From Spirochaetae bacterium HGW-Spirochaetae-2 (GTDB taxonomy: Bacteria; Spirochaetota; Spirochaetia; Sphaerochaetales; Sphaerochaetaceae): a stretch of 64,000 nucleotides of DNA. The stretch covers positions 1-64,000 of the forward strand of contig PGXW01000003.1 in assembly GCA_002839355.1 (NCBI GenBank). Reading direction: 5' to 3'. Below the pieces are notes generated by a model. It was not told the DNA's origin and did not search any database. It saw only the letters and a program-made list of their open reading frames with translations. A program made the position numbers and the translations under genes. Positions 15,665 to 43,892 of the stretch are shown piece by piece; position 1 is the first letter of the stretch; each line of letters opens with the position of its first letter.

Positions 15665-16594
15665 CTACTTGTTCAACAACTTCATGACCCTGTCGGCGAT
15701 ACTTTCGGCACTCAGTCCGTACGCAGCCAACAATTCGTCATAAGGACCAGTCTCGGTGAAACGGTCTTCAACACCGATCGCATCGAAGGCATAGGTCATT
15801 TTTCTTTTGGCGAGTGCTTCCAGACAGGCGCTTCCGAAGCCGCCTACCACAGTGTGCTCCTCGACAGTAACAAGATTACCGGTTTTTGCGACCGATGCGG
15901 CCAAGCCGTCTCCGTCCAACGGTTTCACGAATGGAATCGAAAGGATCTCGGCATCCACACCCTTTGCGGCCAGCAATACCGCGGCATCGTTCGCCATAGC
16001 GGCAGTGATACCGTTCGCCGCAACCGTCACATCCTTGCCCTCTTTGAGAACAATGACTTTCTTGGAAGCGAAGTTTGCGGGTTCCGGTACACTAGGCATG
16101 GCATTCCGATTGAGCCTGATGTACACGGGGGTATTCTGCTGCAATGCGTATTCAAGTGCGAGTTCGGCCTGTCGGGAATCCGCAGGTACAATCACTTCCA
16201 TATTCGGCATTGCACGCATGATCGCGATATCGGTGATGGACTGGTGGCTTGCGCCATCGAAAGAATCGCTCAAACCGCCATAGGCACCGGCAATAACGAT
16301 CGGCAGGTGGTTGTAACAGAATACATTCCGGATCTGGTCGGTCGATTTCAATGCCAGGAAAATGGCGAAAGCGTTTACCACAGGATGGTACCCTGCGGTT
16401 GCAAGTCCTGCCGCAACACCCACCAGGTTGGCTTCAGCCACTCCGACATTGAAGAAACGGTCCGGAAAAGCTTTCCCGAAAATCGCGGATTTGGTACTCG
16501 AGGATACATCCGCATCCAAGACCACGATCTTATCATTGGTTTTCCCAAGTTCGGCAAGTTTTGCGCCGAAAGCATCTCTCATGGCAACACTCAT
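15665..16594 (-). CDS. Transketolase C-terminal (pyrimidine/C-domain) subunit
   Basis: A 309-residue protein equal to the second half of transketolase, with the pyrimidine-binding domain (E-A-N-L-V-G-V-A-A-G-L-A around residue 54, conserved catalytic-type Glu) and the C-terminal domain. Its ATG overlaps the stop of the N-terminal subunit (ATGA), so the two halves are made in equal amounts. Split transketolases often serve dedicated catabolic routes (for example apulose-4-phosphate or sulfo-sugar routes) rather than the pentose cycle. Confidence 0.9.
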   Translation of the reverse strand: MSVAMRDAFGAKLAELGKTNDKIVVLDADVSSSTKSAIFGKAFPDRFFNVGVAEANLVGVAAGLATAGYHPVVNAFAIFLALKSTDQIRNVFCYNHLPIVIAGAYGGLSDSFDGASHQSITDIAIMRAMPNMEVIVPADSRQAELALEYALQQNTPVYIRLNRNAMPSVPEPANFASKKVIVLKEGKDVTVAANGITAAMANDAAVLLAAKGVDAEILSIPFVKPLDGDGLAASVAKTGNLVTVEEHTVVGGFGSACLEALAKRKMTYAFDAIGVEDRFTETGPYDELLAAYGLSAESIADRVMKLLNK

Positions 16595-17484
16595 AGGGCG
16601 GCCTCCTTCTTCTCGATGTCCGCCAACAATTCGGGGCGTCCTTTTGCATAACTGTCAATATCGATCGGTGCACCATGCCAGGCACTCTTGCCTTCCATGA
16701 ATGAAACACCCTTGCCTTTCACTGTCTGATAAATGACAGCCTTCGGCCATACGTCATCGCTATCCATCCAATCATAGGATTCAAGCAACGACTTCGTATC
16801 GTGCCCATCGTAGAGTTTCGGTGCGACGTTCCACCCGAAAGCCTTGAACTTGTCGGCCAAGGGATTGAGCGGCATGATGTCGTCGGAAGTGCCGTCAAGC
16901 TGGACGCCGTTGTAATCGATCATGTAGACCAGGCGTTCCGGACGATACTTCGCTGCCATCATGGCAGCTTCCCAAGTCTGTCCTTCGTTGAGACAACCTT
17001 CTCCGGAAAGCACGTATGTCCAGTGCTTCTTTCCGGACAGGCGTGCGGCCAAAGCCATTCCCACACCAATCGAAAGACCATGTCCCAAAGCACCGGTCGA
17101 CATGTCGACACCGGGGGTCCTCTTCATGCTGGGGTGTCCCTGCAAGTGGGATCCCAAGGTTCTGAACCCGGGAAGATCCTCAGGGGAGAAGAAGCCCTTG
17201 TAGGCCAGAATGGTATAGAGGTTCATCGATGCATGTCCCTTGGAAAGAATGAACCTGTCCCGATCTTCCCATGCAGGATTGCTCGGATCGACATTCATCC
17301 TATTGAAGTACAGCGATGTAGTTATTTCAGCAGCAGAGGAAGCTCCTCCCCAGTGTCCAGTTCCCCGCGAGTGCAGCACATCGAACATTTCGAGGCGAAA
17401 GCCTGCAGCCAACGCGGCCAATTCCACAGCAGAAAGGGATTGCCCTTTTTTTTCTGCCAGCAAAGACTTCAATGTATCGTCCAA
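16591..17484 (-). CDS. Transketolase N-terminal (thiamine diphosphate-binding) subunit
   Basis: A 297-residue protein equal to the first half of transketolase: G-T-G-H-W-G-G (about residue 40), R-D-R-F-I-L-S-K-G-H-A-S (about 74-85), G-A-L-G-H-G-L-S (about 131-138) and the ThDP loop S-G-E-G-C-L-N-E-G-Q. It begins with TTG at 17484, chosen because an AGGAG site lies 6 nt upstream and the family N-terminus fits; no upstream ATG suits. It leads the operon transketolase-Fe-ADH-LarA-TIM barrel from its own operator-bearing promoter at 17527-17552, separate from the TTT genes upstream. Confidence 0.9.
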   Translation of the reverse strand: MDDTLKSLLAEKKGQSLSAVELAALAAGFRLEMFDVLHSRGTGHWGGASSAAEITTSLYFNRMNVDPSNPAWEDRDRFILSKGHASMNLYTILAYKGFFSPEDLPGFRTLGSHLQGHPSMKRTPGVDMSTGALGHGLSIGVGMALAARLSGKKHWTYVLSGEGCLNEGQTWEAAMMAAKYRPERLVYMIDYNGVQLDGTSDDIMPLNPLADKFKAFGWNVAPKLYDGHDTKSLLESYDWMDSDDVWPKAVIYQTVKGKGVSFMEGKSAWHGAPIDIDSYAKGRPELLADIEKKEAAL

Positions 17485-17526
17485 ATCCGGCTCCTTCCGA
17501 AGGAAATCGATTCCTTCGTATTAAAT

Positions 17527-17552
17527 ATTGTATCTCGTATACAGTACACAAT
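17527..17552 (-). promoter_or_regulatory. Promoter and GntR-type operator of the transketolase operon
   Basis: On the minus strand ATTGTGTACTGTATAC is followed by a TACAAT -10 box; the -35 is weak. The operator agrees with those at 20973-20989, 33172-33192 and 37493-37510. It lies about 45 bp upstream of the TTG start at 17484. Confidence 0.65.
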
Positions 17553-17643
17553 AATGTACCTGCATTATGCGCCAAAATCCCAACTATTGCAACCGACAAA
17601 CCCGGTATATAAGCATAAAGATATGCATCAAATAAGCTTCCGG

Positions 17644-19149
17644 CTACTCATGTTCAGCTGCAACCTTTCGCGACCGGTATTTCCCAATGGCCTTGCTGAT
17701 GATCGGATATGCTAGGAATATGAAGGCGATCGCCAAACAGACCACCGCAATGGGACGTTCGAAGATGGCACTGAATTGTCCATTGGACGATACCAGGCCG
17801 GTCCGAAGGTTCCGTTCGACCAGTGGTCCCAGAATGAAACCGAGGATAACCGGAGCCAAATCGACATTCAATTGCTTGAGTATGTAACCGAAAAGACCGA
17901 AAATCACCAGGATCCACACGTCGAAGATCCTATTGTTCAACGTGAAGACACCGATGACACAAAATACGATCAGCGCGGGGAACAGCAATGACAACTTCAC
18001 ATTGATTATCCGTACGAACAGCTTCATCAACCCCAACATCATGATATACATCACGATATTCGCTATGAAATAGAGCACCATGATGGAACCCGAGATATCC
18101 AGGTTCTGTGTGAACAACAATGGTCCCGGTTGCAGCCCGTGGATCATGAGGCCACCGATCAGTACTGCTGTCACCTGGTCCCCGGGGATACCGAGGGTGA
18201 CCAGTGGAATCAGCGCACCACCATTGACCGCATTGTTCGAGGATTCCGAAGCACAGATACCCTCCGGCGAACCATGCCCGAACTTCTCAGGATGCTTCGA
18301 AACCTTCCGGGCCTGGTTGTAGGCAAGTATGGTGGCGGCATTCTGGCCAATCCCGGGAAGGATCCCTATCAGCGATCCGAATACACTACCTATTCCCAGC
18401 GATTTCCCCGTTCCCTTCAAGTATTTCCAAGGGGGCATGAGGGAAATACGTCCGATGGCCATCTTTTCCTTCACATTGTGCAGATCGATGGTCTGGTCCA
18501 TGATTTCCCTGATCGCGAATAGTCCCATCATGAGAGCGGTCATGGAGATACCTCCGGTGAGCTGCCAGTTGCCGAATGTCATTCGGGAAACGCCGGTGAT
18601 ATTGTCCATACCCACCGCAGCGAGCAACACGCCGATAACGGCACCGATCAAACCTCGTATGATATCGTCACTCACCATGGCGACAACTATAGCCATACCC
18701 ATGACAGCGACCGCAAAATACTCCCATTGACCAAAGATCAACGAGACTTTTGCCAACTGTGGGGCTATGCTGAACAGGACCATGGAGGAGAAGAGTCCTC
18801 CGATCAGCGAGGCGAATACCCCGATGGACAGCGCTTCCCCCGGAAGTTTTTTCGCCATGGGATACCCGTCCCAACAGGTGACGATCGAAGACGGAGTCCC
18901 GGGGATGTTGATAAGCATCGCCGTGATCAATCCCCCGCTTATTCCTCCGACATAGATTCCCAGCAACAACGACAATCCTTGGACAGCGGTCATAGTAAAC
19001 GTGAACGGGATTACCAGGGCTACCCCCAAAGTTGCTGTAAGGCCGGGGATCGATCCGAACACGACACCCATGAAGACTCCCGCCAACATGAGCAACAATG
19101 TGATCGGGTCGGAAAATACTGTTTGAAATCCAATGATGATAGCTTCCAT
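17644..19149 (-). CDS. TTT transporter large membrane subunit (TctA family)
   Basis: A 501-residue inner-membrane protein with about 11-12 helices and the TctA hallmarks G-S-I-P-G-L-T-A-T-L-G (about residues 32-42), N-I-P-G-T-P-S-S-I-V-T-C-W-D-G-Y-P-M and G-I-L-P-G-I-G-Q-N-A-A. It is the ion-coupled translocation subunit for a carboxylic acid delivered by the binding protein at 19355. Gene order is tctB-tctC-tctA. The 205-bp gap to tctC holds a hairpin and a copy of the dispersed repeat. Confidence 0.92.
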   Translation of the reverse strand: MEAIIIGFQTVFSDPITLLLMLAGVFMGVVFGSIPGLTATLGVALVIPFTFTMTAVQGLSLLLGIYVGGISGGLITAMLINIPGTPSSIVTCWDGYPMAKKLPGEALSIGVFASLIGGLFSSMVLFSIAPQLAKVSLIFGQWEYFAVAVMGMAIVVAMVSDDIIRGLIGAVIGVLLAAVGMDNITGVSRMTFGNWQLTGGISMTALMMGLFAIREIMDQTIDLHNVKEKMAIGRISLMPPWKYLKGTGKSLGIGSVFGSLIGILPGIGQNAATILAYNQARKVSKHPEKFGHGSPEGICASESSNNAVNGGALIPLVTLGIPGDQVTAVLIGGLMIHGLQPGPLLFTQNLDISGSIMVLYFIANIVMYIMMLGLMKLFVRIINVKLSLLFPALIVFCVIGVFTLNNRIFDVWILVIFGLFGYILKQLNVDLAPVILGFILGPLVERNLRTGLVSSNGQFSAIFERPIAVVCLAIAFIFLAYPIISKAIGKYRSRKVAAEHE

Positions 19150-19168
19150 TGGTAGTCACCCTCTCCTT

Positions 19169-19255
19169 GTGGTCTGCAACATCCTGATCCTCGCTCTGGC
19201 CACCCGGTACCATGTACTCCAAGCCAAGTCCCAAGGTTCTTCCGATACAGATCAC
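19169..19255. repeat. Dispersed repeat, copy B (short, divergent)
   Basis: An 87-bp element begins GTGGTCTGCA and ends TACAGATCAC. Its left about 30 bp resemble 41101-41130 (about 22 of 30) and its right 39 bp resemble 41222-41260 (about 29 of 39 without gaps), so it looks like the copy C element with the middle missing. It sits between tctC and tctA. Confidence 0.65.
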
Positions 19256-19315
19256 TGGTCATTCAAATTCGTTAGTACCTGTTTGTGAACCAGATACTTG
19301 TATCCATAAGCACCC

Positions 19316-19335
19316 CACAGGGGACTATCCCTGTG
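19316..19335 (-). terminator. Hairpin between tctC and tctA
   Basis: CACAGGG and CCCTGTG make a perfect 7-bp stem with a 6-nt loop, 20 bp after the tctC stop. With no clear U-tract it may be a partial terminator or processing stem that lets the binding protein be made in excess of TctA. Confidence 0.4.
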
Positions 19336-19354
19336 AGGCGCATAAGACGATAGG

Positions 19355-20332
19355 TTATTTGTTTCCGGCTGAAAGCTTTTCGAATACGGGCTTCAACTCT
19401 TCGACCCACTTCGCAACCTTGTCATGACCGGTCTGGCCATCGACAAAATTCGCTTCCAATCCGAGACCGGCGACAGTCTTCACGAATTCAGGATTGTCCA
19501 CGACCTTCTTCATCGCTGCGGCCAAGAAGTCGATCGCTTCCTTCGGAGTTCCCGGAGGAGCGTAATAACCACGTGGCTTGCTGGTGGTGACATCGATACC
19601 CTTCTCGAGTGTGGTCGGCACTTCAGGAAGTGCTTTCGCACGGTAGGAACTGATCACCATAAGGGGAATAGTATCGCCTGAGGCAACCGAAGTCCGGATA
19701 TCGGCACTCGAGTTTGTCTCGACCTGGATGTGGTTACCCATCAAGGCAGTCTTCGAAGCCGCACCACCATCGTAAGGAACGAGTGTGACATATTTTGTCA
19801 AACCGAGAGCTTCGACAACGCGAACAGTGTCGGCGGCATTGACGGTCTGGGAACCAGACATGCCCCACTTGATCTTGCCGGGATTGGCCTTGGCATAGGC
19901 GACAACCTCTTCCAAGCTCTTCCAACCACTCTGCTTGTTGGTCGAGACAACGTTGAAATCGTCGACGACAAAACAAATGGTTTCCAACTCATCCCACAAT
20001 TCGATTTCGGTCTGCCCGCTCATTGAATAGGAAACAACGTCCATAGGGTTGTGGGCCAGGATATTGTAGCCTTTGTTCGGTGCATGGTAGGCCTGCATGG
20101 CTCCGATCATACCTGCGGCTCCATCGATATTGATCGCAACCAGAGGCTGGGGCATTTCAATATACTTCATGATAGCGCGGGTGAGGATATCGGAACCACC
20201 ACCAGGTGCATACGGAATGATAACCTGAACAGGTTCCTTCGGGTACTGGGCAGTGGCAGTTTCAGCCTGGCCAGCTGCGAATACTGGGAGTGCAAGGGCC
20301 ACCAACAGTACGGCGAACAGTAATTTCTTCAT
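19355..20332 (-). CDS. TTT transporter periplasmic binding protein (TctC family)
   Basis: A 325-residue secreted protein with signal peptide about residues 1-19 (cleavage near F-A-A-G). The mature domain shows P-V-Q-V-I-I-P-Y-A-P-G-G-G-S-D-I-L-T-R (about 33-51), the TctC/Bug ligand loop, and G-A-A-G-M-I-G-A (about 72-79). It delivers a carboxylate ligand to TctAB. GGAGG precedes the ATG. It is located between tctB and tctA. Confidence 0.92.
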   Translation of the reverse strand: MKKLLFAVLLVALALPVFAAGQAETATAQYPKEPVQVIIPYAPGGGSDILTRAIMKYIEMPQPLVAINIDGAAGMIGAMQAYHAPNKGYNILAHNPMDVVSYSMSGQTEIELWDELETICFVVDDFNVVSTNKQSGWKSLEEVVAYAKANPGKIKWGMSGSQTVNAADTVRVVEALGLTKYVTLVPYDGGAASKTALMGNHIQVETNSSADIRTSVASGDTIPLMVISSYRAKALPEVPTTLEKGIDVTTSKPRGYYAPPGTPKEAIDFLAAAMKKVVDNPEFVKTVAGLGLEANFVDGQTGHDKVAKWVEELKPVFEKLSAGNK

Positions 20333-20369
20333 GAGAAATCCTCCAAGATGTAATTTTTCATGGCACCGA

Positions 20370-20888
20370 CTAAGGCAGTGTCACTTTCAACAAGATTGAA
20401 AAGACCACATAGATCACCAGCAGCATCACCACGGAAAAGACAACTGCCAACAAGAGCACTTTCTTCCTTTCCGCTTTCGTCAACTTCCGTTCGCCCCGCG
20501 TGATCTCCTTAACGGAGAAGACCGAGACCAGCAGCAACAGGAGTGCCAATGTGGTTATCGTGAAGCCAATGATTGGCAATAAAATTGTATACAATATTAA
20601 AGAAATTGCTGTGATCACAATTTCCTTGTTCCACAGGAACGTAAATCCCGTCACATTGTCAGATTTCTTGAAATTGAACGATTTGACCACGAGCACCACC
20701 GCCAAGACCAAGAGGATACCTGCAAGCAAATCAACATAGGTTCCTGCCTGGGCGAACGGACCACCGGCTCCCGTAGCAACGTCATTTTTAACTATATTCT
20801 TACTAGTCAACAAATAGATTCCCAGTCCTATCGATAAGACACCCAGCACCAGATCATTCATCGATCGCACGATCTTCTTTTCAGCCAT
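20370..20888 (-). CDS. TTT transporter small membrane subunit (TctB family)
   Basis: A 172-residue membrane protein with four hydrophobic helices (about 10-28, 45-65, 85-115 and 145-168) and a charged loop around 120-140, as in TctB. The ATG at 20888 follows GAAGGAGG; the longer frame to 20960 runs back toward the promoter and is rejected. It is the first gene of the tctBCA unit, behind the operator promoter at 20967-20995. A perfect ATTGTATACAAT palindrome lies within it at 20584-20595. Confidence 0.85.
   Translation of the reverse strand: MAEKKIVRSMNDLVLGVLSIGLGIYLLTSKNIVKNDVATGAGGPFAQAGTYVDLLAGILLVLAVVLVVKSFNFKKSDNVTGFTFLWNKEIVITAISLILYTILLPIIGFTITTLALLLLLVSVFSVKEITRGERKLTKAERKKVLLLAVVFSVVMLLVIYVVFSILLKVTLP
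20584..20595. promoter_or_regulatory. Intragenic ATTGTATACAAT palindrome
   Basis: A perfect 12-bp palindrome made of the same half-site as the nearby GntR-type operators, inside tctB about 390 bp from the promoter. It could be an auxiliary operator; coding constraint (L-Y-T-I-L) could also explain it. Confidence 0.3.
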
Positions 20889-20966
20889 CCAAGCCTCCTT
20901 CAACGGCTTTTCCCTCGGAACCAAGGTAACATGCACCTTTGCCGAAAGAACACGCCACACCCGATC

Positions 20967-20995
20967 ATTTTATTATACAGTATACAATATGTCAA
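20967..20995 (-). promoter_or_regulatory. Promoter of tctBCA with GntR-type operator in the spacer
   Basis: On the minus strand TTGACA (20995-20990), a 17-bp spacer and TAAAAT (20972-20967) form a strong sigma-70 promoter. The spacer holds ATTGTATACTGTATAA, so a bound repressor would block polymerase. The leader to the ATG at 20888 is about 70 nt. Confidence 0.75.
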
Positions 20996-21047
20996 AGTAA
21001 AACGCATACCTAAACCGTGCCTAGTACGGTTTTCGATACAATTGGAA

Positions 21048-21755
21048 TTACACTGCAGGAAAAAGCATGGAACTATTTCTCAAGGCTTCCCACGTCCGCT
21101 CCTCGCCATTGGCGATATGTTGCTCCATTGCCGCTCCGGCCGACTTCTCGTCCCTTGCCTTTATGGCATTCAAGATGCACAGGTGTTCCTCGATCGTCCG
21201 TTCCACATACCATTTGGGAAAAACCTGCGCATAGCACCAGGCTCGGATCAACCAACATTGTTCCTCCACCGATTCAAGCATGTTCGCCAAGCGGGGATTG
21301 TCCGCACCCTCGAGGATCTTCGCATGGAAGATCTTATCCACTTTGATCAGTTCCGACTGTTCACTCATATACCGGTGGACATCGTCACGCCGATACATAC
21401 CGAACAGGTAGGTCAAATCGGCTTCTTCCATATGGCGGGCCGCCAATGCCGCGGAGAGCCTTTCGAGCATCCTCCGGATATTGAAGATATCGGCTATTTC
21501 CTTCTCTGTAGGATTGAATACTGAATAACTTTTACCATCATAAACAATAAGACCTTCGGCGACGAGACTTTTCAAGCCCTCTCGCACAGGCGTCATGCTC
21601 ACTTTCAGATCTTGGGCCAACGATTCGACCAATAACCGGCTGCCACGAGGATATTCAAGATTGAATATCCTCAGCTTGATGATACGTGTCACTTCATCGC
21701 ACAAGTACTGTCGCAAGAGAATCGATGACTTCTGAGTTCGCTTGGTCGCTATCAT
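21048..21755 (-). CDS. GntR-family regulator, FCD (FadR) subfamily
   Basis: A 235-residue repressor-type protein with a winged helix-turn-helix (about residues 15-85; recognition segment L-K-V-S-M-T-P-V-R-E-G-L) and an all-helical FCD ligand domain (about 90-225) with D-x3-H (D-K-I-F-H) and later His residues for a metal. It is adjacent to tctBCA and in the same direction, so it probably controls the TTT/transketolase genes. Its recognition helix differs from that of the two paralogues near 38 kb. AGGTAGGGG precedes the ATG. Confidence 0.88.
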   Translation of the reverse strand: MIATKRTQKSSILLRQYLCDEVTRIIKLRIFNLEYPRGSRLLVESLAQDLKVSMTPVREGLKSLVAEGLIVYDGKSYSVFNPTEKEIADIFNIRRMLERLSAALAARHMEEADLTYLFGMYRRDDVHRYMSEQSELIKVDKIFHAKILEGADNPRLANMLESVEEQCWLIRAWCYAQVFPKWYVERTIEEHLCILNAIKARDEKSAGAAMEQHIANGEERTWEALRNSSMLFPAV

Positions 21756-21848
21756 TGTATGTCCCCTACCTCATAAGCACTCTTATTGTTATACCCTGCA
21801 ATCATATGCCATTTCCAAGATATCATTCAAGCGTATATTGTTCTGAAA

Positions 21849-21876
21849 TCCATCGACCGGAAGACCGACCGATGGA
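21849..21876 (-). terminator. Terminator at the end of the TRAP-UxaE operon
   Basis: On the minus strand TCCATCGGTCGG and CCGGTCGATGGA form a 12-pair stem (two G-U pairs) with a 4-nt loop, followed by TTTC, 10 bp after the stop at 21886. Confidence 0.65.
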
Positions 21877-21885
21877 CATGCTTCG

Positions 21886-23649: not shown

Positions 23650-23668
23650 GATTTGTTCCTCTCTTCCT

Positions 23669-25375: not shown

Positions 25376-25386
25376 TCTCTACTCCC

Positions 25387-26694
25387 CTAGATATTCAAAT
25401 TTCCCTCAAGATCGAATTCGACTTCGCCGAACGGCTCCAACAGTTCAAGACCGGGATTTGCCGCAACTTCGTCTGCCAATGCCTCCGAAACGATAATCGT
25501 CTCGATATGGGAGGTATTCGCTATCCGTACGATCCGAGGATTGTCCTTGTCGATATCGACACACGTGAAGATCGCCGCCTGTATCGCAGTCTTGTCGTTC
25601 TTCATGATCACCGGAATCTTCGCTCCGATGAGGACCGTGCAGGTCAACGCATTCGGGTAGGCGGCATCGAAATCGATCTTATCGAACATCCGCTTCGTTC
25701 CAATCTCCACCATACCCGCTCCCATGGCATTGCCGTGGGTTTCATCACTCAAATCGAGTACCACATACCGCTGTACGACCGGTCCTCCAGAGGCATATGG
25801 AGTACAGTAGGTCGCGGTGATATTCGGATCCATGCCATCGCCACTGTAATTCTTGCCTATCTTGTCGACGACGAGGATATCGATATCCTGAATGCCGATC
25901 GCCGGCATGAGCTTCCGGGCCTTGTCCAATAGCTCGGGCTCCCGGGTTGGGATCGCCTCGCGTGCCACCGCCTCGATAATCGCCGTATCGTCGAACGCAT
26001 TCTCGAGAATCGCCAAACCGAACAGGATCGGGGCATTGTTCAGGATCGTGTTGCCGAATGCCACGACATTATGGGCCATGCGTCCGAATCCCTCTGCATG
26101 ACAAACTTCAGCGCCCTTCTGTTTTCCCAATCCGATCGCCATCATCTTGTACAATCCGCTCTCATACTCTCCGCGGAATGCCGTATGGGGCTTTACCCGG
26201 CCGACGACAATGATACCATCGGATGCGGCGGCGTAGGCATCGATCAACACCGGCTTGTTGTCGGCATTGACACCGATTTGGACGGTTTCCATCGTGGAAC
26301 GTATGGGAGCGCCGACAAATTCCTCGGTGACACCCAGGCCTTCCAACATCTCCTTCTGACCGGCCGCTGTCGCTCCGCCATGGCTACCCATGGCCGGAAT
26401 GACAAACGGTTTCCCGCCCAGACGCTTCACGTTCCTGGCTACTTCACGGATGATAACAGGAATATTCGCGATACCCCTGCTTCCCGCGGTAATCGCGATC
26501 GAGGCATCCTGCTTGATCGTCTTGGCAATCTCGGGTCTGTTGAACTGTTCTTCTATAGCCTTCGGGATATCATCTACCCGCGTGTCATCGAACAACTGCC
26601 TGACCCGAGCCATCCGGGGAATCCGGACAGGATCGAGTATACCTGCTATGACGCCATCACGATCCCAGGAACTGTCCCTAAATGTAGTACTCAT
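25387..26694 (-). CDS. LarA-like (DUF2088) protein, second paralogue
   Basis: A 435-residue protein related to the LarA catalytic domain: G-S-R-G-I-A-N-I-P, P-A-M-G-S-H-G-G-A-T (the T-G-T-H-R counterpart) and V-K-P-H-T...G-L-Y-K-M-M, where His and Lys are spaced about as in LarA. It is a different branch from the paralogue at 12949-14355. It may epimerise an aldonate or other hydroxyacid. The ATG at 26694 follows GGGGAGAAT; an in-frame start at 26718 is less likely. It sits 11 bp upstream of the transaldolase-like gene. Confidence 0.7.
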   Translation of the reverse strand: MSTTFRDSSWDRDGVIAGILDPVRIPRMARVRQLFDDTRVDDIPKAIEEQFNRPEIAKTIKQDASIAITAGSRGIANIPVIIREVARNVKRLGGKPFVIPAMGSHGGATAAGQKEMLEGLGVTEEFVGAPIRSTMETVQIGVNADNKPVLIDAYAAASDGIIVVGRVKPHTAFRGEYESGLYKMMAIGLGKQKGAEVCHAEGFGRMAHNVVAFGNTILNNAPILFGLAILENAFDDTAIIEAVAREAIPTREPELLDKARKLMPAIGIQDIDILVVDKIGKNYSGDGMDPNITATYCTPYASGGPVVQRYVVLDLSDETHGNAMGAGMVEIGTKRMFDKIDFDAAYPNALTCTVLIGAKIPVIMKNDKTAIQAAIFTCVDIDKDNPRIVRIANTSHIETIIVSEALADEVAANPGLELLEPFGEVEFDLEGNLNI

Positions 26695-26718
26695 GGATTT
26701 ATTCTCCCCAACGCACAT

Positions 26719-27453
26719 TCAGCGCATCAATGCTCCACCATTCACATCCACAGTCACGCCAGTCAGATAATCTGCAAGCGTCGAGGACAAGAACAGAATC
26801 ACTTTGGCGACATCCATGGGCTCCGCAAGTCTGCCGAGCATCGTGGTATCGGCCGAATACCGACCTTTCGCCATATTCGTTTCGGTAGGACCAGGGGCCA
26901 CAGCGTTGGCTGTGATTCCATATTTCGCCCCATTGCGGGCATAGGATTTCGTAAGGCCCACTACACCTGCCTTCGATGCGACATATCCGGGAGTAACCTT
27001 CATGCCACCGATCTGACCTCCAAGGGAGGCGATGGAAACGATACGGCCACTGTTCTGGGCCTTCATATATTTGAATACTTCCCTGGTACAGAGATGCACT
27101 CCGGTAAGGTTGATATCGAGGACCTTGTGCCACTCGTCCATCGTCTCCTCGTCCATCGTTTTGAAATACCCGATTCCGGCATTGTTCACCAGGATATCGA
27201 CTTTTCCAAAACGCTCGACGACTGTGTCCACCATGTGTTTGACCGACGCCTCGTCATGGACATCCACACCCACTGCGATGGATTGTGCTCCTGTCGCATT
27301 CAGATCAGCCGATGCTTGGGTTGCCCGTTCTTCCTGGATATCCGCCAACACAACGATCGCACCCTCGGCAGCAAGCAGTTGTGCCGCACAAAAACCAATT
27401 CCATCAGCACCACCGGTGATAATGGCAACCTTTCCCTTCAATTGTAAATCCAT
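26719..27453 (-). CDS. SDR-family oxidoreductase
   Basis: A 244-residue classical short-chain dehydrogenase. T-G-G-A-D-G-I-G (about residues 13-20) binds the cofactor, with D38 after the second strand suggesting NAD preference. N-N-A-G (about 90-93), the catalytic Ser in S-I-A-S, Y-V-A-S-K and a P-G-P-T loop are present. It probably oxidises or reduces a sugar or sugar-acid hydroxyl in the TRAP operon's route. An AGGAG site precedes the ATG. Confidence 0.88.
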   Translation of the reverse strand: MDLQLKGKVAIITGGADGIGFCAAQLLAAEGAIVVLADIQEERATQASADLNATGAQSIAVGVDVHDEASVKHMVDTVVERFGKVDILVNNAGIGYFKTMDEETMDEWHKVLDINLTGVHLCTREVFKYMKAQNSGRIVSIASLGGQIGGMKVTPGYVASKAGVVGLTKSYARNGAKYGITANAVAPGPTETNMAKGRYSADTTMLGRLAEPMDVAKVILFLSSTLADYLTGVTVDVNGGALMR

Positions 27454-27477
27454 GATCCTTTCTCCTATTCAACGCTG

Positions 27478-28311
27478 TCATGCACGTCCTGCATACAGGT
27501 TTTCGTTCATTTCCAACAACTTGATGAGCCCGACACTTCCCCGCAGTTCAGGAATGAAAGAATGTTTAACATTTCCTTCGATTGTCAAAGTTCCGGTAAA
27601 ACCCACCGATTCGAGTGCACGGTAGACCTGCTGGAAATCGACCGCACCCAAACCGGGAAAATAGCGATTGTTTTCGGAAAAGTGGATGGAATTGAACCAT
27701 GATGCATGCTTGATCAAGGGCAAGGCCATATCCACCTCTTCGATATTCATATGGTAGGTATCCGGCAACACAGCTACTGCCTTGCGCGGATACGGCGATA
27801 CCATTTCAACAGTATCCTCAATGAGATTGCAGACGTTCGAGATAAACCTGTTCAATGCTTCGACTACGATAACAACACCTGCGTCCTGGGCAACCGGCAC
27901 CAATTGGGACAACGAGTCGGCAAACAATTGTCTAGCCAGAGTCCTGTCGGCGGTGTCGTTTCCCTGGGCGAATCCCAGGATGAGTCCGGTGAAACCGGCC
28001 TCGGAGCAATAACGGATCACCTTCCTGATGGATGTTATCGACTCCATGCGTACCTTTTCATCGAAGTGTGACAGCGAAGTCTTCTTCCCCGGATACAGTC
28101 CGCCGGTCGCATAATTGGTGCATCGCAATCCAAAGCCTCCCAAGAAGCCCTGGATCCGTGAAGGCTCGACCTCTTCCGGATATGCGATATTCAATTCGAC
28201 GTGGTCGCACCCGGTTTCCCGCAAAGCTTCCATTCTTTCAATAAACTCCGCATCGGATTCATATCCGATGGGGAGTGTCATCTGAATGCCGACCGACTTT
28301 CCTATATGCAT
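27478..28311 (-). CDS. Sugar isomerase/epimerase-like TIM-barrel protein
   Basis: A 277-residue AP endonuclease-2/xylose isomerase-like TIM barrel. Metal-site candidates are V-V-E-A-L-N-R (about residues 155-161), D-T-Y-H-M-N (about 189-194), H-F-S-E-N-N (about 217-222) and T-I-E-G-N. It is related in kind to the protein at 12143 but is not a close copy. AAGGAG precedes the ATG. It lies between two SDR genes in the TRAP operon. Confidence 0.77.
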   Translation of the reverse strand: MHIGKSVGIQMTLPIGYESDAEFIERMEALRETGCDHVELNIAYPEEVEPSRIQGFLGGFGLRCTNYATGGLYPGKKTSLSHFDEKVRMESITSIRKVIRYCSEAGFTGLILGFAQGNDTADRTLARQLFADSLSQLVPVAQDAGVVIVVEALNRFISNVCNLIEDTVEMVSPYPRKAVAVLPDTYHMNIEEVDMALPLIKHASWFNSIHFSENNRYFPGLGAVDFQQVYRALESVGFTGTLTIEGNVKHSFIPELRGSVGLIKLLEMNENLYAGRA

Positions 28312-28340
28312 TGTCTTTAACTCCTTATGCCGATCTACGA

Positions 28341-29093
28341 TCAGTCGCGCAGTGTTCCGCCGTTGACCATCATAGTCTCAGCGGTTACGAATGCTGCTTC
28401 CCTGCTTGCGAGATAACAAACGGCATAGGCGACATCTTCGGGCTTCCCAAGACTCTTTGTGATGCTGTTGTTGATGAACTTCTGGTTCTCCTCGGGACTG
28501 ACGGCACTCGACATGGCGGTCGCGATCCTTCCGGGAGCGATCGCATTGACCGTAATACCATCGGCACCGACCTGTTGGGCAAGATTCCGCACGAATGCGA
28601 GCACAGCTCCCTTGGATGCGGCGTAATGGAGTGCTGCGACAGTTCCACCGTTCTTTCCCGCTTCGCTGGAAATACTGATGATCCTGCCGAATTTCCGGCT
28701 GCGCATACCGGGAAGAATTGCCTTGCAGAAGTAGTACGATGCCTTCACATTGACGGCGAAAACCAGATCCCACTCCTTGCTCTCGATCTCTTCGATCGGC
28801 TTCAACGGGTGGATGCCCGCGTTGTTGACCAAAATGTCGATCTTGCCGAAACCGGATTCAACTTCACCTACAAACTTCTTCACAGCGGACTCGTCGGTGA
28901 TATCGAAGGCACCGGTAATGACTTTTCTTCCGGTAGCTTCACGAATTTCCTTCGCGGTTGCTTCCAGGACATCTTGTTTGACATCACAGATCGCGACATC
29001 GACACCACGTTGGGCAAGCACCATTGCTATGCCCTTGCCCATTCCCTGTGCCGATCCGGTAATAATCGCCGCCATTCCTTTCAAGCTTTCCAT
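28341..29093 (-). CDS. SDR-family oxidoreductase
   Basis: A 250-residue short-chain dehydrogenase with G-S-A-Q-G-M-G (about residues 13-19), D36 (NAD preference likely), N-N-A-G (about 89-92), the catalytic S-I-S-S, Y-A-A-S-K and P-G-R-I-A-T. It is the second SDR of the operon. Such pairs often catalyse opposite redox steps at neighbouring carbons, but the substrate is not visible from sequence. Confidence 0.88.
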   Translation of the reverse strand: MESLKGMAAIITGSAQGMGKGIAMVLAQRGVDVAICDVKQDVLEATAKEIREATGRKVITGAFDITDESAVKKFVGEVESGFGKIDILVNNAGIHPLKPIEEIESKEWDLVFAVNVKASYYFCKAILPGMRSRKFGRIISISSEAGKNGGTVAALHYAASKGAVLAFVRNLAQQVGADGITVNAIAPGRIATAMSSAVSPEENQKFINNSITKSLGKPEDVAYAVCYLASREAAFVTAETMMVNGGTLRD

Positions 29094-29115
29094 TCTTATA
29101 TCCTTATACTATCGA

Positions 29116-30153
29116 TTATTCAGGTTTGAAGAGCACTTTCAGCCCTTCCTTCTTCTCGAACACATCGAAGCCCTTTTCCCACTCGTCCAACGAGAAGGTG
29201 TGGCTTACCAAGTCCTTGAGATTGAGTTTCTTTGCCTCGACAAGTTTGATGGCATTGTTCCAGGCTGTCCATACGGATCCCAGGGAACCTGTCACTTTGA
29301 TCTCCTTGTAACAGATCCTGTCGAAATTCAATTCGAACGGCTTGCCGGCGAGCCCGATCTGAACGAATTGGCCTTGCTTCCGGACAGCTTCGATACCCGT
29401 TGCGGTTGCGCGTCCCGAACCAGAACACTCCAAAACCACGTCTGCGCCACGGCCCATGTGGGTGAGCGATTTCACAATGGCAAGCACGTCTTCCTTGGTG
29501 ACATCGACAATCCTGTCGGCACCGAGTTTTTTCGCGAATGTAAGCCGGTCCGCGTCCACACTGGTTCCCGAGACAATCACGAATGCACCGTGGGCCTTTG
29601 CGACCTGCATGGCAATAAGTCCGACTGCTCCAGGACCGGAGACGAGCACCACATCGCCAGCTTGGATAGTGGCAAGATCCATGACCGCATGTGTCACGCA
29701 AGCCGCCGGCTCGAGAAGTGCAGCTTCCTCAAAAGAGATGGAGTCGGTCAACAGGTGGATGCGATCCTCGGGTACCACGGTATATTTGGCGAACGCGCCG
29801 TTGAACCAATAGCCCAAAGTCCTCCGTTCATCGCAGAGGTTGTACCGGCCTGTCTTGCAATTGTGGCATTTGCCGCAATAGGCATATGCGGTCTCGCTGG
29901 TGACCCGGTCCCCGACCTTGCAGGTCGTGACACCTTCACCGACAGCGGTGACCACACCGGAAAATTCATGTCCCGTCACCACAGGTGGCCGTACGGGAAT
30001 CGCGATATCGCTATGCAAGATATGGATGTCGGATCCGCAGATACCTGCGGCCTTGACTTCGATCTTGACTAGTCCAGGCTGTACTACCGGTTCCGCAATT
30101 TCACGGATTTCCATATTGCCCGGGCCCTTGTCGTACTTTACCAATCCTTTCAT
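29116..30153 (-). CDS. Zinc-dependent sugar/polyol dehydrogenase (MDR family)
   Basis: A 345-residue medium-chain dehydrogenase like sorbitol or threonine dehydrogenase. The catalytic zinc region is C-G-S-D-I-H (about residue 39) with G-H-E (about 63); structural zinc cysteines are C-G-K-C-H-N-C-K-T-G-R-Y-N-L-C. The cofactor loop is G-P-G-A-V-G. It is first after the TRAP permease genes in the operon, so it likely acts on the imported compound. Confidence 0.88.
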   Translation of the reverse strand: MKGLVKYDKGPGNMEIREIAEPVVQPGLVKIEVKAAGICGSDIHILHSDIAIPVRPPVVTGHEFSGVVTAVGEGVTTCKVGDRVTSETAYAYCGKCHNCKTGRYNLCDERRTLGYWFNGAFAKYTVVPEDRIHLLTDSISFEEAALLEPAACVTHAVMDLATIQAGDVVLVSGPGAVGLIAMQVAKAHGAFVIVSGTSVDADRLTFAKKLGADRIVDVTKEDVLAIVKSLTHMGRGADVVLECSGSGRATATGIEAVRKQGQFVQIGLAGKPFELNFDRICYKEIKVTGSLGSVWTAWNNAIKLVEAKKLNLKDLVSHTFSLDEWEKGFDVFEKKEGLKVLFKPE

Positions 30154-30184
30154 CTTTCTATCTCCTATAATTTCTTTACAATGA

Positions 30185-31474
30185 TCAACCGAGAGTCAAC
30201 GTAGGTATCCACAGTACAATTCCGGGAACCAACGTGGTAAGCAACAAGACCGCCAACATCGACACATACAGGGGCAAGGCCGATTTGATCAGCTGTCCCA
30301 TTTCCATCTTCGCGACATTGCAGGTACTGAACAGACAAACCCCGAACGGTGGGGTCACCATACCGATCGCAAGGTTCAACACGAAAACGACCGCGAAATG
30401 GATCGGATGGATACCGACAGCGGCCGCAACCGGGAACAGGATCGGTGCCATGACTATGATCGCTACCCCCGCATCCAGGAACATACCCATGACCAACAGG
30501 AATACGTTGATCATAAGGAATATCGCAAGCTGGTTGTTGGTGATTCCCAACAGGAACCCTGCGACTATCTGCGGAAGACCTTCGAAGGTGAGGATGAATG
30601 TGAAGATCGACGAAGATCCGATGATTGCGACGACCGCGGCAGTCAACCGGGCTGCAGAAATCAGTGACTTGTAGATAACACCCTTCTTCAATGATTTGTA
30701 GAAAAACACCGAGATGAAAATCGTATAGACAACCGCAAGGCCACCCGATTCGGTGGGAGTGACGAATCCGGTCATGATACCCAGCATAATGATTACCGGT
30801 GCACCCAATGCCCATATCCCCACCCGAAAGGAATTCCAGAGGGCACGGAATGAGAATTTCTTCACCGAACCATATTTGTGCTTACGGCAGATAAAATAGT
30901 TCTGGATCATCATTGCCGAAGTCAATAAGACCCCAGGCCCCAAACCACCGATCAGCAACCACGAGACGGACAATTCGGAGACAGCTCCGATAATGACCAT
31001 GAGGATACTGGGAGGAACGATAACCGCAAGGGTTGAGGACAATGCGGTAATTGCAGCCGAATACCCCTTGTCGTACCCGTCGGCCTCCATCTCGGGAATC
31101 AGGATCGTTCCCAAAGCCACCGTATCGGCGACCGAGGAACCCGACATACCTCCGAAAATGAAACTGGCGACAACGTTGGATGCCCCCAGGCCACCTCGTG
31201 CCCAACCGACTCCAGCCTTCGCGAAATCGATGAGTTTCTTGGCCACACCAGTCGATTCCATCAGAACGCCAGAGAGCACGAACAGGGGAATTGCGACAAG
31301 CACGTAGGACTCTGTGCCGGAGAACATGAGCTGGGGAATCGAAATCAGTGGAACCGGATTATGTATGATGATGGTCATGACACTCGCCAGACCGATCGAT
31401 ACGAACACTGGAGTCCCGAGAAGAAGGAGAAACACAGCAAGACCAAACACTGTCAAACTCATTACCGGTATCAT
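30185..31474 (-). CDS. TRAP transporter large permease (DctM family)
   Basis: A 429-residue inner-membrane protein with about 12 helices and the DctM marks G-M-S-G-S-S-V-A-D (about 113-121), P-P-S-I-L-M-V-I and V-T-P-P-F-G-V. It is the sodium-coupled translocation subunit for the binding protein at 32138. Its ATG overlaps the dctQ stop by 4 bp. Confidence 0.93.
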   Translation of the reverse strand: MIPVMSLTVFGLAVFLLLLGTPVFVSIGLASVMTIIIHNPVPLISIPQLMFSGTESYVLVAIPLFVLSGVLMESTGVAKKLIDFAKAGVGWARGGLGASNVVASFIFGGMSGSSVADTVALGTILIPEMEADGYDKGYSAAITALSSTLAVIVPPSILMVIIGAVSELSVSWLLIGGLGPGVLLTSAMMIQNYFICRKHKYGSVKKFSFRALWNSFRVGIWALGAPVIIMLGIMTGFVTPTESGGLAVVYTIFISVFFYKSLKKGVIYKSLISAARLTAAVVAIIGSSSIFTFILTFEGLPQIVAGFLLGITNNQLAIFLMINVFLLVMGMFLDAGVAIIVMAPILFPVAAAVGIHPIHFAVVFVLNLAIGMVTPPFGVCLFSTCNVAKMEMGQLIKSALPLYVSMLAVLLLTTLVPGIVLWIPTLTLG

Positions 31475-32049
31475 TTCGCGTCTCCTTCTTTAATGAATCC
31501 TTCCCGGATCAACTCTTCAATTCCCAGGTCTTCAAGTCCAACAGGAATATCATATATGAATTCGGGGTCCTTATTCCTAAAGACCATCACAATCCTTTCA
31601 ATCAAACGGTAGACGGATATCACTGCCCCGATCACGATGGGAGAACGCATCAACCACACGGGAGCATGCAAGGCCGGTGTGGTCTGGCCCCGTCGTGCGT
31701 AGCTCATCAAGGCCATCAATCCCAAATACCCGAACATGCAGATCATGATTCCGAACAGAACCAGATGGATCACCTTGAGGACCTTCCTGGCTTTCTTCGG
31801 AAACTTTTGATATACACTGCGTATTCCAACGTGGGAATCATCGTGTATGGCAAGGGCAATCCCGATCCAGATGAGGCCACCGAACACATACGTGATCAAC
31901 TCAAGTGTCCAGGGAGCCTTCATACCGGGAATCAGCCGGTTCAGCACCTGCATGAGGGATGAAATCAGAATTATCCCTAAAAACGCTGATGCTATCGCAT
32001 ATTCGGGATTTTTAAGAAAATACTTGAAACCCAATGTTTTTTTTTCCAT
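31471..32049 (-). CDS. TRAP transporter small permease (DctQ family)
   Basis: A 192-residue membrane protein with four hydrophobic helices (about 18-38, 50-68, 92-115 and 130-155) and a hydrophilic C-terminal tail rich in Glu, longer than in many DctQ proteins. It couples to DctM with a 4-bp overlap. A terminator-like hairpin separates it from dctP. Confidence 0.88.
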   Translation of the reverse strand: MEKKTLGFKYFLKNPEYAIASAFLGIILISSLMQVLNRLIPGMKAPWTLELITYVFGGLIWIGIALAIHDDSHVGIRSVYQKFPKKARKVLKVIHLVLFGIMICMFGYLGLMALMSYARRGQTTPALHAPVWLMRSPIVIGAVISVYRLIERIVMVFRNKDPEFIYDIPVGLEDLGIEELIREGFIKEGDAK

Positions 32050-32081
32050 TCCTGCACACCTTTTTTACCAATCATGGCAAA

Positions 32082-32109
32082 AGGATGCCCCGTTTGAACG
32101 GAGCATCCT
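32082..32109 (-). terminator. Intra-operon hairpin between dctP and dctQ
   Basis: AGGATGC...GCATCCT with an inner CCGTT/AACGG stem is followed on the minus strand by TTTTGCC. It lies 29 bp after the dctP stop. Partial termination here would give more binding protein than permease. Confidence 0.55.
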
Positions 32110-32137
32110 GAAAACTTCTTTTCAGATCACGAAACCA

Positions 32138-33160
32138 TTATCTGGTTGCATCGGCGACTCTCACCAACTCATCCCAGGCAGCAGCGCCGATGGTCTTCTT
32201 GATAGCGTCGTATGCAGGACCCATGAGGGCTCTCCAGGGCTCTTTCATCTCGGCAGTGAAATCCGTGAACTGGATTCCAGCCTTTCCCATTGCATCGCGT
32301 GCGATCTTTTCCCGTTCGATCGTGCTCTTCAACACGACTTCGGTGGATGCCGCTGCAACTTCAAGAAGGTCTTTCTGGAATGCGGCCGACAATCCGTCGA
32401 ACCAATCCTTGTTGACCACAACCAAGACACCATCACCCATGTAGTTCCAAACGTTGATGTACTTGCCCTGCTCGTAGGTACGGGTCGAGTACTGTGTGGA
32501 AAGGGCGTTGTCTTCACCGGAAACTGTTCCGAGCTGCATTGCTGTGTAGATTTCGCCTGACGGAAGGGGAACCGGATTCGCCTTCATGGCCTGGAATGTC
32601 GTTACGAACAGATCCATTGCGGGAACCCTGAAACGCATTCCTTCGATATCTTTCGGCACAATGATCGGGCGAACTGAGTTCAACAGCTGGCGGGGAGCCC
32701 GTGGCCAGTAGGAGATGACCTTGAGGTTCTTTGTCTCGAGCTTTGCAAACCAATCATCGACAAACGAGGGCTTCTCAGCCATGAACCGCAACACGTGTTC
32801 CATGTCCTCGAACATGAAGGGTGTGCTCAAGGCAAACAATTCGGGAACAAGGCTGGCGAGGGTAACCTGTGATTCACAAGCCATCTGAATAACATTTTCC
32901 TGGGTTTGTTCAAAGATTGTCGCCCAGTTGTTGTTTGCCAATTGTCCGTTGGGATAGATCTTCGAATCGATCTGGTCGGGGTATCTCTTCATCATCTCGG
33001 CTCGGATGAATTCGAAGCCCACCTGCCAGGTCTCGGTCTGTGGTAAGTTGTGCTGGATATTCATCGAAACCTTCTGTGCCGGTTTCTCTGCCCCACCCTG
33101 TGCAAACACCATAGCACTGGCCATGCACACAATCAGAATCGCTACTAATAAACGTTTCAT
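32138..33160 (-). CDS. TRAP transporter periplasmic binding protein (DctP family)
   Basis: A 340-residue secreted protein with a signal peptide about 1-21 ending F-A-Q-G-G-A-E. The DctP features are I-Y-P-N-G-Q-L (about 62-68), the R-F-R-V-P ligand arginine segment (about 180-184) and P-L-P-S-G-E-I-Y-T-A-M-Q-L-G-T-V-S-G. It is the first gene of a ten-gene operon (dctP-dctQ-dctM, Zn-ADH, SDR, TIM barrel, SDR, LarA-like, transaldolase-like, UxaE-like), driven from the promoter at 33172-33216. Confidence 0.92.
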   Translation of the reverse strand: MKRLLVAILIVCMASAMVFAQGGAEKPAQKVSMNIQHNLPQTETWQVGFEFIRAEMMKRYPDQIDSKIYPNGQLANNNWATIFEQTQENVIQMACESQVTLASLVPELFALSTPFMFEDMEHVLRFMAEKPSFVDDWFAKLETKNLKVISYWPRAPRQLLNSVRPIIVPKDIEGMRFRVPAMDLFVTTFQAMKANPVPLPSGEIYTAMQLGTVSGEDNALSTQYSTRTYEQGKYINVWNYMGDGVLVVVNKDWFDGLSAAFQKDLLEVAAASTEVVLKSTIEREKIARDAMGKAGIQFTDFTAEMKEPWRALMGPAYDAIKKTIGAAAWDELVRVADATR

Positions 33161-33171
33161 ATACGCTCCTT

Positions 33172-33216
33172 TGTATATAGTATACTATATCTTAACATCT
33201 ATTCCCCACCTGTCAA
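33172..33216 (-). promoter_or_regulatory. Promoter and GntR-type operator of the dctP operon
   Basis: On the minus strand an A-tract precedes TTGACA (33216-33211), followed after 16 bp by TAAGAT. The dyad around ATATAGTATACTATAT (33175-33190) overlaps the -10 and start site. The same CACCTGTCAATC context recurs at the second dctP promoter (37511-37522). Confidence 0.65.
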
Positions 33217-34809: not shown

Positions 34810-35291
34810 TGGGCTCCCCCTTCATGTTTTATGATTACGTGGTAGATACTCTGAATTTCCCGGAAAAGATACCCTGCCGCACCGAGTGGAACACAGATGT
34901 ACAGCCAAGTCTGTCGGATCTGCAACCCGGGGGAGCGGAAATTCCAAGATCTGATCGCAAGTTGCAGCCCAAACCATACGAGCATCACCATGAATACGAC
35001 ATTCAGGATCTTCTTGATTACGAACAATGCCAGTTGGGTCTTCTTGCCAACACGAACATTGATAAAATCGAAAAACATTTCGATCTTGATATGGGCATTG
35101 ATCTTACGCAAGAAGCCGATGCCGATGAAACTGATCCAGACATTGAGATACTGGGAGACCTCGACACTCCAGGCGAACGAGATACCGAATATCGATCGCA
35201 TGAATACTTGGAACAGCATTACCGTACAGATGATCAAAAATACTGCGATCGGCACGTACTCTTCAATAAAATCATACAGTCTTTTTATCAT
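34806..35291 (-). CDS. TRAP transporter small permease (DctQ family), second system
   Basis: A 161-residue membrane protein with four helices (about 12-32, 45-62, 88-108 and 128-148). It overlaps the Zn-dehydrogenase stop upstream and the dctM start downstream by 4 bp each, so the dehydrogenase, DctQ and DctM are translationally coupled. Confidence 0.9.
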   Translation of the reverse strand: MIKRLYDFIEEYVPIAVFLIICTVMLFQVFMRSIFGISFAWSVEVSQYLNVWISFIGIGFLRKINAHIKIEMFFDFINVRVGKKTQLALFVIKKILNVVFMVMLVWFGLQLAIRSWNFRSPGLQIRQTWLYICVPLGAAGYLFREIQSIYHVIIKHEGGAQ

Positions 35292-43883: not shown

Positions 43884-43892
43884 GTTCTCCTC

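Follow-up and report, generated by a model that had tools for sequence, protein, structure and literature searches.

Several described routes resemble parts of a locus in Spirochaetae bacterium HGW-Spirochaetae-2, which we analysed in a window of 64,000 nucleotides (positions 1 to 64,000 of contig PGXW01000003.1, assembly GCA_002839355.1) and which carries an island of apparent sugar-acid catabolic genes. In apiose and apionate catabolism, the split transketolase AptAB acts on a catabolic keto-sugar, as the split transketolase (TK) of the island would, and those routes require an apulose kinase or 3-oxo-isoapionate enzymes. The classical (Ashwell) hexuronate pathway comprises an aldonate dehydratase, 2-keto-3-deoxygluconate (KDG) kinase and 2-keto-3-deoxy-6-phosphogluconate (KDPG) aldolase. 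In the Thermotoga UxaE/IolO hexuronate-inositol network, IolO epimerises 5-keto-L-gluconate and tagaturonate. The PdxA fold is found in PdxA2, a D-threonate-4-phosphate dehydrogenase that occurs with a DUF1537 kinase, and in TphB, whose substrate is an unphosphorylated dicarboxylate. UxaE interconverts tagaturonate and fructuronate via a retro-aldol step (PMC11194214). Gluconate is among the hydroxy acids that LarA proteins epimerise at C2 (PMC7583248), and enzymes of the LAR group of LarA racemise glycerate (PMC11770544). Lastly, sulfoglycolysis can proceed by a sulfo-TK or a sulfo-transaldolase (sulfo-TAL), including in a bifurcated Faecalicatena route (PMC11659671; reviewed in PMC9594981).

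By its logic, the island would be the carboxylate counterpart of the sulfo-TK and sulfo-TAL pathways, with a different enzyme set. It would share with them an unphosphorylated acidic keto-hexose, a split TK and/or transaldolase, glyceraldehyde-3-phosphate as the acceptor and the lack of a sugar kinase. However, its acid would be a carboxylate; it has epimerases of the UxaE, IolO and LarA types, a PdxA-like protein and an iron-dependent alcohol dehydrogenase (FeADH); and its transaldolase-like protein, TALx, has 568 residues vs ~220 for SF-TAL, the transaldolase of the sulfo-TAL pathway, which is of the fructose-6-phosphate aldolase (FSA) type. A sulfosugar route was rejected, as the island has no SF-TAL-type transaldolase, no sulfolactaldehyde enzymes and no sulfonate family at cut-off. 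An apiose-type route was rejected as well, since none of its diagnostic families, neither apulose kinase nor 3-oxo-isoapionate enzymes, was found in the island. Like the classical hexuronate pathway and the Thermotoga network, the island has relatives of the keto-uronate epimerases UxaE and IolO, but with TK and TALx instead of the dehydratase, KDG kinase and aldolase of the Ashwell pathway, none of which was detected in it by Pfam or NCBIfam. Its PdxA-like protein shares the fold and metal site of PdxA2 and TphB; unlike PdxA2, its phosphate ligands are replaced and no kinase gene adjoins it. We propose, with moderate confidence, that the genes of the island form a single regulon serving several sugar acids and that C-C bond cleavage takes the place of a sugar kinase.

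Organization and gene content of the island

The window corresponds to contig C30 of the spirochaete genome G000 (3.6 Mb, 99.8% complete). The nearest named record is contig L013 of the metagenome-assembled genome (MAG) HGW-Spirochaetae-4, in which the gene order of the island is identical (95-99% identity). Protein families were assigned by Pfam and NCBIfam profile scans of the open reading frames of the window (Table 1). Four transcription units lie on the minus strand and run towards lower coordinates. Unit 1 (37520-33529) codes for DctP1, ADH1, DctQ1 and DctM1, and unit 2 (33160-21048) for DctP2, DctQ2, DctM2, ADH2, SDR1, IolO2, SDR2, LarA22, TALx, UxaE2 and a GntR regulator. They are followed by the TTT unit (20960-17644; TctB, TctC and TctA) and the TK unit (17484-12143; TKN and TKC, the two halves of TK, then FeADH, LarA1 and IolO1).

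The island thus holds two TRAP (tripartite ATP-independent periplasmic) systems, one tripartite tricarboxylate transporter (TTT), two short-chain dehydrogenases/reductases (SDRs), two zinc-dependent alcohol dehydrogenases (ADHs), one Fe-ADH, two IolO-like isomerases and two LarA proteins. An earlier note made from the sequence had listed a split transketolase, an oversized transaldolase, a UxaE-like epimerase, two LarA proteins, SDRs, ADHs and TIM barrels, all of which the Pfam and NCBIfam matches bear out. It had also reported the absence of a sugar kinase, and indeed none of the genes scanned in the four units matched a kinase family of either database. The nearest solved structures to DctP2 are 4x8r and 4n8y, which we take to be glucuronate- and galacturonate-bound, a lead only for its ligand.

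The earlier note had placed the island at 16591-33160. The parts that it named are there, but the system spans about 10448-47557. PrpR-PdxA-TctB2-TctA2-TctC2 adjoins the TK module in relatives, some of which also have genes for a DUF362 protein and an AP_endonuc_2 protein next to it. Orthologues of all these genes are present in the window at 10448-11551 and 38863-47557, a part of the system, with PdxA, the second TTT transporter (TTT2), PrpR and GntR2, that had been missed. The window seems to hold an enlarged form of an older core whose parts are separated by the TRAP, LarA22, TALx and UxaE2 genes.

Gene neighbourhoods in other spirochaetes

Neighbourhoods were compared in spirochaete genomes and, outside the Spirochaetota, on plasmids. 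The core found in other spirochaete genera consists of PrpR-PdxA-TTT, GntR2 and TK-FeADH-LarA1-IolO1, and in several genera TK-FeADH-LarA1-IolO1-PdxA-TTT stands alone. Larger combinations occur in four other families. Genome G209 has a contiguous series ADH2-TKN-TKC-FeADH-DctP2-DctQ2-DctM2-LarA22 on contig C22 (46-71% identity), and its contig C33 carries SDR1-TctABC-FeADH-TK together with PrpR-PdxA-TTT2. The order in G377, from a third family, is DctQ2-DctM2-ADH2-LarA22-LarA, then GntR, DctP2, SDR1, GntR and TKN-TKC-FeADH. A single operon of G330 (fourth family) comprises TKN-TKC-ADH2-GntR-TALx (573 residues)-LarA-UxaE2-SDR-unknown-IolO2-SDR1. Finally, DctP1-SDR-UxaE2-tagaturonate reductase-ADH1-DctQ1-DctM1-ADH2-transketolase is found in G375 (fifth family).

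The modules thus recombine across genera, and therefore independent known pathways are not what the neighbourhoods show, though the core can stand alone. We recognise none of the recombined module sets as a known pathway. The choice posed by the earlier note, an undescribed route or separate known pathways, accordingly tips towards the former by virtue of the combinations in G330, G209, G377 and G375, with the qualification that the system is modular.

It seems unlikely, but is worth weighing, that separate pathways are placed under a common repressor. PdxA-TTT-TK-FeADH-LarA1-IolO1 would then serve one acid, and an ordinary hexonate/uronate module of LarA22, UxaE2, SDR and ADH enzymes would supply a classical dehydratase/KDG route, encoded elsewhere in the genome, with fructuronate or mannonate. 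Consistent with this, many genomes have the core without LarA22, TALx or UxaE2; relatives of LarA22 adjoin altronate dehydratase-family genes on plasmids of Loktanella, Sporomusa and Sulfitobacter; and a second, ordinary UxaE match is present at C1 of the same genome. In contrast, the G330 operon unites TK with TALx, UxaE2, LarA and IolO2, and TK is joined with ADH2 and LarA22 in both G209 and G377, which speaks against this reading.

Residue signatures of TK and PdxA

The island TK keeps the positions of H26, H66, H100, H261, E411 and H473 of Escherichia coli TktA, including the thiamine diphosphate (ThDP) motif. Tyr takes the place of the phosphate-binding His461 of TktA in every one of the eight island-type TKs checked, whereas the four comparison enzymes (E. 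coli TktA, the split TKs of Collinsella and Shinella, and a G209 paralogue) have His. The triple change R358I/H461S/R520Q in E. coli TktA gives higher 5-keto-gluconate activity (PMC12016104).

The window PdxA and five spirochaete orthologues conserve the metal-binding residues His166, His211 and His266. In these six proteins, the substrate/phosphate ligands H136, T137, N283 and R292 of PdxA are all replaced. Together, the loss of phosphate ligands in PdxA and the Tyr in place of His461 in TK point to unphosphorylated donors. The intermediates had been suggested to be unphosphorylated or externally phosphorylated; the residues favour the first option, and external phosphorylation would be unneeded if glyceraldehyde-3-phosphate is the acceptor.

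Two other PdxA loci were noted. On pSymB of Sinorhizobium meliloti (L129:8087-15988), a GntR-PdxA-TctCBA-isomerase-DhaK cluster has a similar front end, with a dihydroxyacetone kinase-family gene (DhaK) downstream of PdxA, where TK otherwise stands. The place of this kinase after PdxA likewise fits an unphosphorylated PdxA substrate. At C60 of G000 (L136:8065-14628), a PrpR-type regulator, a DUF1537 kinase, an Fe-ADH, a PdxA2-like protein and a DapA-type protein are encoded together. The latter cluster is probably an ordinary phosphorylated four-carbon-acid route, contrasting with the island.

The extended transaldolase

TALx keeps the transaldolase motifs, namely the Schiff-base Lys335, TTNP at 220-223, ASLR, and GR at 389-390. 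Its best curated transaldolase equivalog model gives only 40.9 bits vs a cut-off of 367, and it matches BmSF-TAL only at an E value of 0.0056. We propose that TALx cleaves 5-keto-hexonates. A scan of plasmids gave no TALx homologue and a scan of contigs only one, in a near-identical MAG; the idea that TALx is unique was overturned by the G330 operon, which came from a UxaE2 profile search. Genome G039 has a TAL of ordinary length directly upstream of a UxaE2 homologue, and after these two genes its contig C55 (L051:9430-15488) codes for a glycyl radical enzyme of the sulfopropanediol/hydroxyproline dehydratase type, below all equivalog cut-offs, and an activase.

A proposed route through tartronate semialdehyde

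The TRAP and TTT systems would import aldonates, ketouronates and aldarates. PdxA would catalyse the oxidative decarboxylation of an unphosphorylated acid brought in by TTT2, most simply of a hexarate to a 4-keto-pentonate. For C5 acids, TK would transfer a C2 unit from the 4-keto-pentonate to glyceraldehyde-3-phosphate, yielding xylulose-5-phosphate. For C6 acids, the donor would be a 5-keto-hexonate, for example fructuronate, from which TALx would transfer a C3 unit, yielding fructose-6-phosphate. Both cleavages would thus leave the same C3 aldehyde, tartronate semialdehyde, and phosphate would enter with the glyceraldehyde-3-phosphate acceptor, as in the sulfo-TK/TAL pathways. FeADH would then reduce tartronate semialdehyde to glycerate, LarA1 would racemise the latter, and a glycerate kinase would complete the route. 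A GK-I glycerate kinase is encoded elsewhere in the genome, in which no DUF4147 glycerate kinase was found.

FeADH represents a distinct subfamily that is present in 20 of 393 spirochaete genomes, with identities of about 42-76% beyond the genus. Tartronate semialdehyde is produced by glyoxylate carboligase and by the galactarate route. FeADH lies beside a glyoxylate carboligase-like enzyme and a LAR-group LarA in L116; beside a galactarate dehydratase-like protein, two DapA-type proteins and a TTT in L112; and beside a CdaR-type sugar-diacid regulator in L106, while another CdaR-type gene adjoins the TK cluster of G209:C22. Since its neighbours would make tartronate semialdehyde, the simplest assignment for FeADH is that of a tartronate-semialdehyde reductase, with the accompanying LarA as a glycerate racemase.

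These neighbours also bear on another reading, in which TK converts 5-keto-hexonates to xylulose-5-phosphate and a C4 tetruronate, the latter is reduced by FeADH, the resulting tetronate is epimerised by LarA1, and the pathway is completed by a DUF1537 kinase/PdxA2 route encoded elsewhere. We consider this improbable: an engineered E. coli TK is reported to cleave 5-keto-D-gluconate to tartaric semialdehyde, and the C60 cluster has the DUF1537 kinase, Fe-ADH and PdxA2-like genes that would be needed, but that cluster lies outside the island and the neighbours of FeADH elsewhere indicate a C3 rather than a C4 semialdehyde.

Epimerases and dehydrogenases

In the tartronate semialdehyde route, hexonates and keto-hexonates would be epimerised at C2 by LarA22, at C3 by UxaE2, at C4 by the IolO proteins and at C5 by SDR/ADH pairs, which would additionally interconvert aldonates and keto acids. 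With the C5-acting enzymes, all keto-hexonate stereocentres would be covered. The retro-aldol active-site motifs of UxaE2 (GAD-DH, SIDE, KG-DY and HSG-D) align with those of Cohnella UxaE, and a tagaturonate reductase gene adjoins UxaE2 in G375. UxaE2 is thus predicted to be a tagaturonate/fructuronate-type epimerase. ADH2 is proposed to oxidise C5 of aldonates.

Both LarA proteins of the window keep the columns of the catalytic His108 and His174 and of Lys184, which binds the nickel-pincer nucleotide (NPN) cofactor. LarA22 resembles LarA group 22 and GntE in family, catalytic residues and aldonate-type gene contexts. No substrate assignment for group 22 was found in the literature consulted. 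In addition to the plasmid loci mentioned above, relatives of LarA22 adjoin genes for glucuronate isomerase and an SDR in Paenibacillus. These contexts fit the proposed role as an aldonate C2-epimerase, and LarA1 is proposed to be a glycerate (or tetronate) C2-epimerase. The genome has six Lar_N matches and five group-22 matches, partly overlapping. One group-22 paralogue, at C86 (L046:4738-12111), has a TRAP system and a Gfo/Idh-like gene on one side and NagB- and amidohydrolase-like proteins on the other, suggesting a role with an amino-sugar acid.

IolO1 and IolO2 both score below the cut-off of the IolO (5-keto-L-gluconate epimerase) equivalog model and are relatives of that enzyme rather than equivalogs. 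IolO1 also matches the hydroxypyruvate isomerase model (94.7 bits), and hydroxypyruvate serves TK as a donor. The core could then be a tartrate/tartronate-type route, in which PdxA converts tartrate to hydroxypyruvate, the donor for TK, and IolO1 acts as hydroxypyruvate isomerase. We give this little credence: IolO1 fits the IolO model far better (236.8 bits), and the TK-linked ADH2, UxaE2, TALx and LarA22 would be left without a role.

A common operator

The earlier note had attributed one operator to the four units, and a 17-bp palindrome, about TTGTATAC-N-GTATACAA, is indeed present at all four promoters. With at most one mismatch, TTGTATACAA occurs five times in the window vs 0.99 expected, a count that 100 shuffles never attained. 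The operator matrix was derived from the sites of the four units, making high scores and counts in the window partly circular, and the independent test is provided by the loci of relatives. Eight sites scoring 18-22, with ~0 expected, were found in six other genomes of the family (L104, L105, L107, L109, L110 and L113). The TKN/GntR2 promoter accounts for all eight, of which two lie no more than 25 bases from the longest TKN start; no site of score 18-22 occurs elsewhere in those six loci. The operator was found neither in L115 nor in the loci from other families; thus, the sharing that had been anticipated in relatives holds within the family and not beyond it. Because its orthologues flank the operator, divergently from TKN, GntR2 is likely the cognate repressor. 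The GntR gene at 21048 was also considered and is a less likely cognate.

Table 1. Features of the island and of the surrounding core; identities refer to homologues or orthologues in other spirochaete genomes (labels G, L and C)
Feature	Position	Strand	Basis
DUF362 protein, conserved core neighbour	10448..11551	+	Pfam; 59-62% beside GntR2-TK in L104, L105, L107
IolO1, keto-acid epimerase-like	12143..12946	-	IolO model 236.8 bits, below cut-off of 300; conserved with TK
LarA1	12949..14355	-	Lar_N 165 bits; catalytic His/Lys conserved; paired with FeADH in relatives
FeADH, proposed tartronate-semialdehyde reductase	14364..15647	-	Pfam; neighbours in relatives
TKC, transketolase C-terminal half, Tyr at TktA His461	15665..16594	-	Pfam; residue check
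TKN, transketolase N-terminal half	16591..17484	-	Pfam; ThDP-site and His residues conserved
Two overlapping operators, TK promoter	17528..17551		17-bp palindrome
TctB, TctC, TctA, TTT transporter 1	17644..20960	-	Pfam; 35-67% orthologues adjoin TK in G209:C33
Operator, TTT1 promoter	20971..20987		17-bp palindrome
GntR-FCD regulator	21048..21755	-	Pfam; 41-42% homologues in G377 locus
UxaE2, divergent tagaturonate/fructuronate epimerase (predicted), 587 residues	21886..23649	-	Pfam UxaE 101.7 bits vs 27.1
TALx, transaldolase with ~190-residue N-terminal extension, 568 residues	23669..25375	-	TAL_FSA 49 bits vs 27; 573-residue G330 homologue
LarA22, NPN-dependent isomerase group 22	25387..26718	-	NF052515 535.5 bits vs cut-off of 400; catalytic residues
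SDR2	26719..27453	-	Pfam
IolO2, keto-aldonate epimerase-like TIM barrel	27478..28311	-	IolO 141 bits, below 300; 37% homologue in G330 operon
SDR1	28341..29093	-	Pfam; 68-76% in TK loci of G209:C33, G377, G330
ADH2, threonine-dehydrogenase/IolM-like zinc dehydrogenase	29116..30153	-	NCBIfam tdh/IolM below cut-off; beside TK in G209 (66%) and G330 (62%)
DctP2, DctQ2, DctM2, second TRAP	30185..33160	-	DctP Pfam; kept with TK, FeADH, LarA22 in G209, G377
Operator, TRAP2 promoter	33171..33187		17-bp palindrome
DctQ1 and DctM1, TRAP permease subunits	33529..35291	-	DctM Pfam, DctQ position; G375 homologues 49%, 70%
ADH1, zinc medium-chain dehydrogenase	35288..36322	-	Pfam; 52% homologue in G375 UxaE2 operon
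DctP1, TRAP solute-binding protein	36429..37520	-	Pfam DctP 267 bits; 61% homologue beside UxaE2 in G375
Operator, TRAP1 promoter	37491..37507		17-bp palindrome
GntR2	38863..39495	+	Orthologues 46-57%, divergent from TKN in seven loci, operator between in six
AP_endonuc_2 TIM barrel	39511..40491	-	Pfam; 44-46% in L104, L105, L107
TctC2, TctA2, TctB2, TTT transporter 2	41313..44366	-	35-81% orthologues beside PdxA and TK
PdxA-like oxidative decarboxylase (putative), phosphate ligands lost	44363..45403	-	NCBIfam PdxA family; residues
PrpR-type sigma-54 regulator	45662..47557	-	NCBIfam; 47-57% orthologues upstream of PdxA

A gene of the tryptophanase/tyrosine phenol-lyase family at 874-2343 of the window (579 bits, subfamily model) is apparently unrelated to the island.

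Weight of the evidence and significance

Several observations count against the proposed route. No FeADH was detected in the operon of G330, and some TK loci lack LarA1. In TK, R520 and the position aligned with R358 are retained, so that it can still bind phosphate. The AlphaFold2 models of TALx are poor and of low confidence. The product of PdxA and the assignment of a hexarate as its substrate are deduced from chemical logic. Finally, unlike LarA group 22 and GntE, the LarA proteins of the island occur in a genome, G000, in which LarB and LarC were not found, which leaves LarA activity unexplained. LarC was likewise not found in G224, a genome of the same genus with two group-22 genes. NPN would be either taken up from the surroundings or supplied by a different maturation pathway.

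Set against the conserved linkage, the operator and the residue signatures, these points leave a kinase-free catabolic system for sugar acids that is real, conserved and seemingly undescribed. Among 5.39 million open papers searched, none combined transaldolase with tartronate semialdehyde and uronate, and for aldarates together with transketolase no clearly relevant paper appeared. We more tentatively envisage a general, phosphorylation-free funnel for sugar acids, in which epimerases for all stereocentres would bring many aldonates, ketouronates and aldarates into forms that TK or TALx can cleave. The two cleavage enzymes would differ in chain-length preference and share tartronate semialdehyde as a product, and glyceraldehyde-3-phosphate would be the sole entry point of phosphate. 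PdxA would then have a novel activity, on aldarates that are unphosphorylated, and the extended transaldolases would make up a new subfamily.

If the proposed route is correct, it would represent a new bacterial sugar-acid pathway that applies a sulfoglycolysis-like logic to carboxylates. Roles would thereby be assigned to several uncharacterised groups, namely UxaE2, the transaldolases of 570 residues, LarA group 22, the subfamily of FeADH and a group of PdxA proteins acting on unphosphorylated substrates, and gene clusters in several families of spirochaetes would be accounted for.

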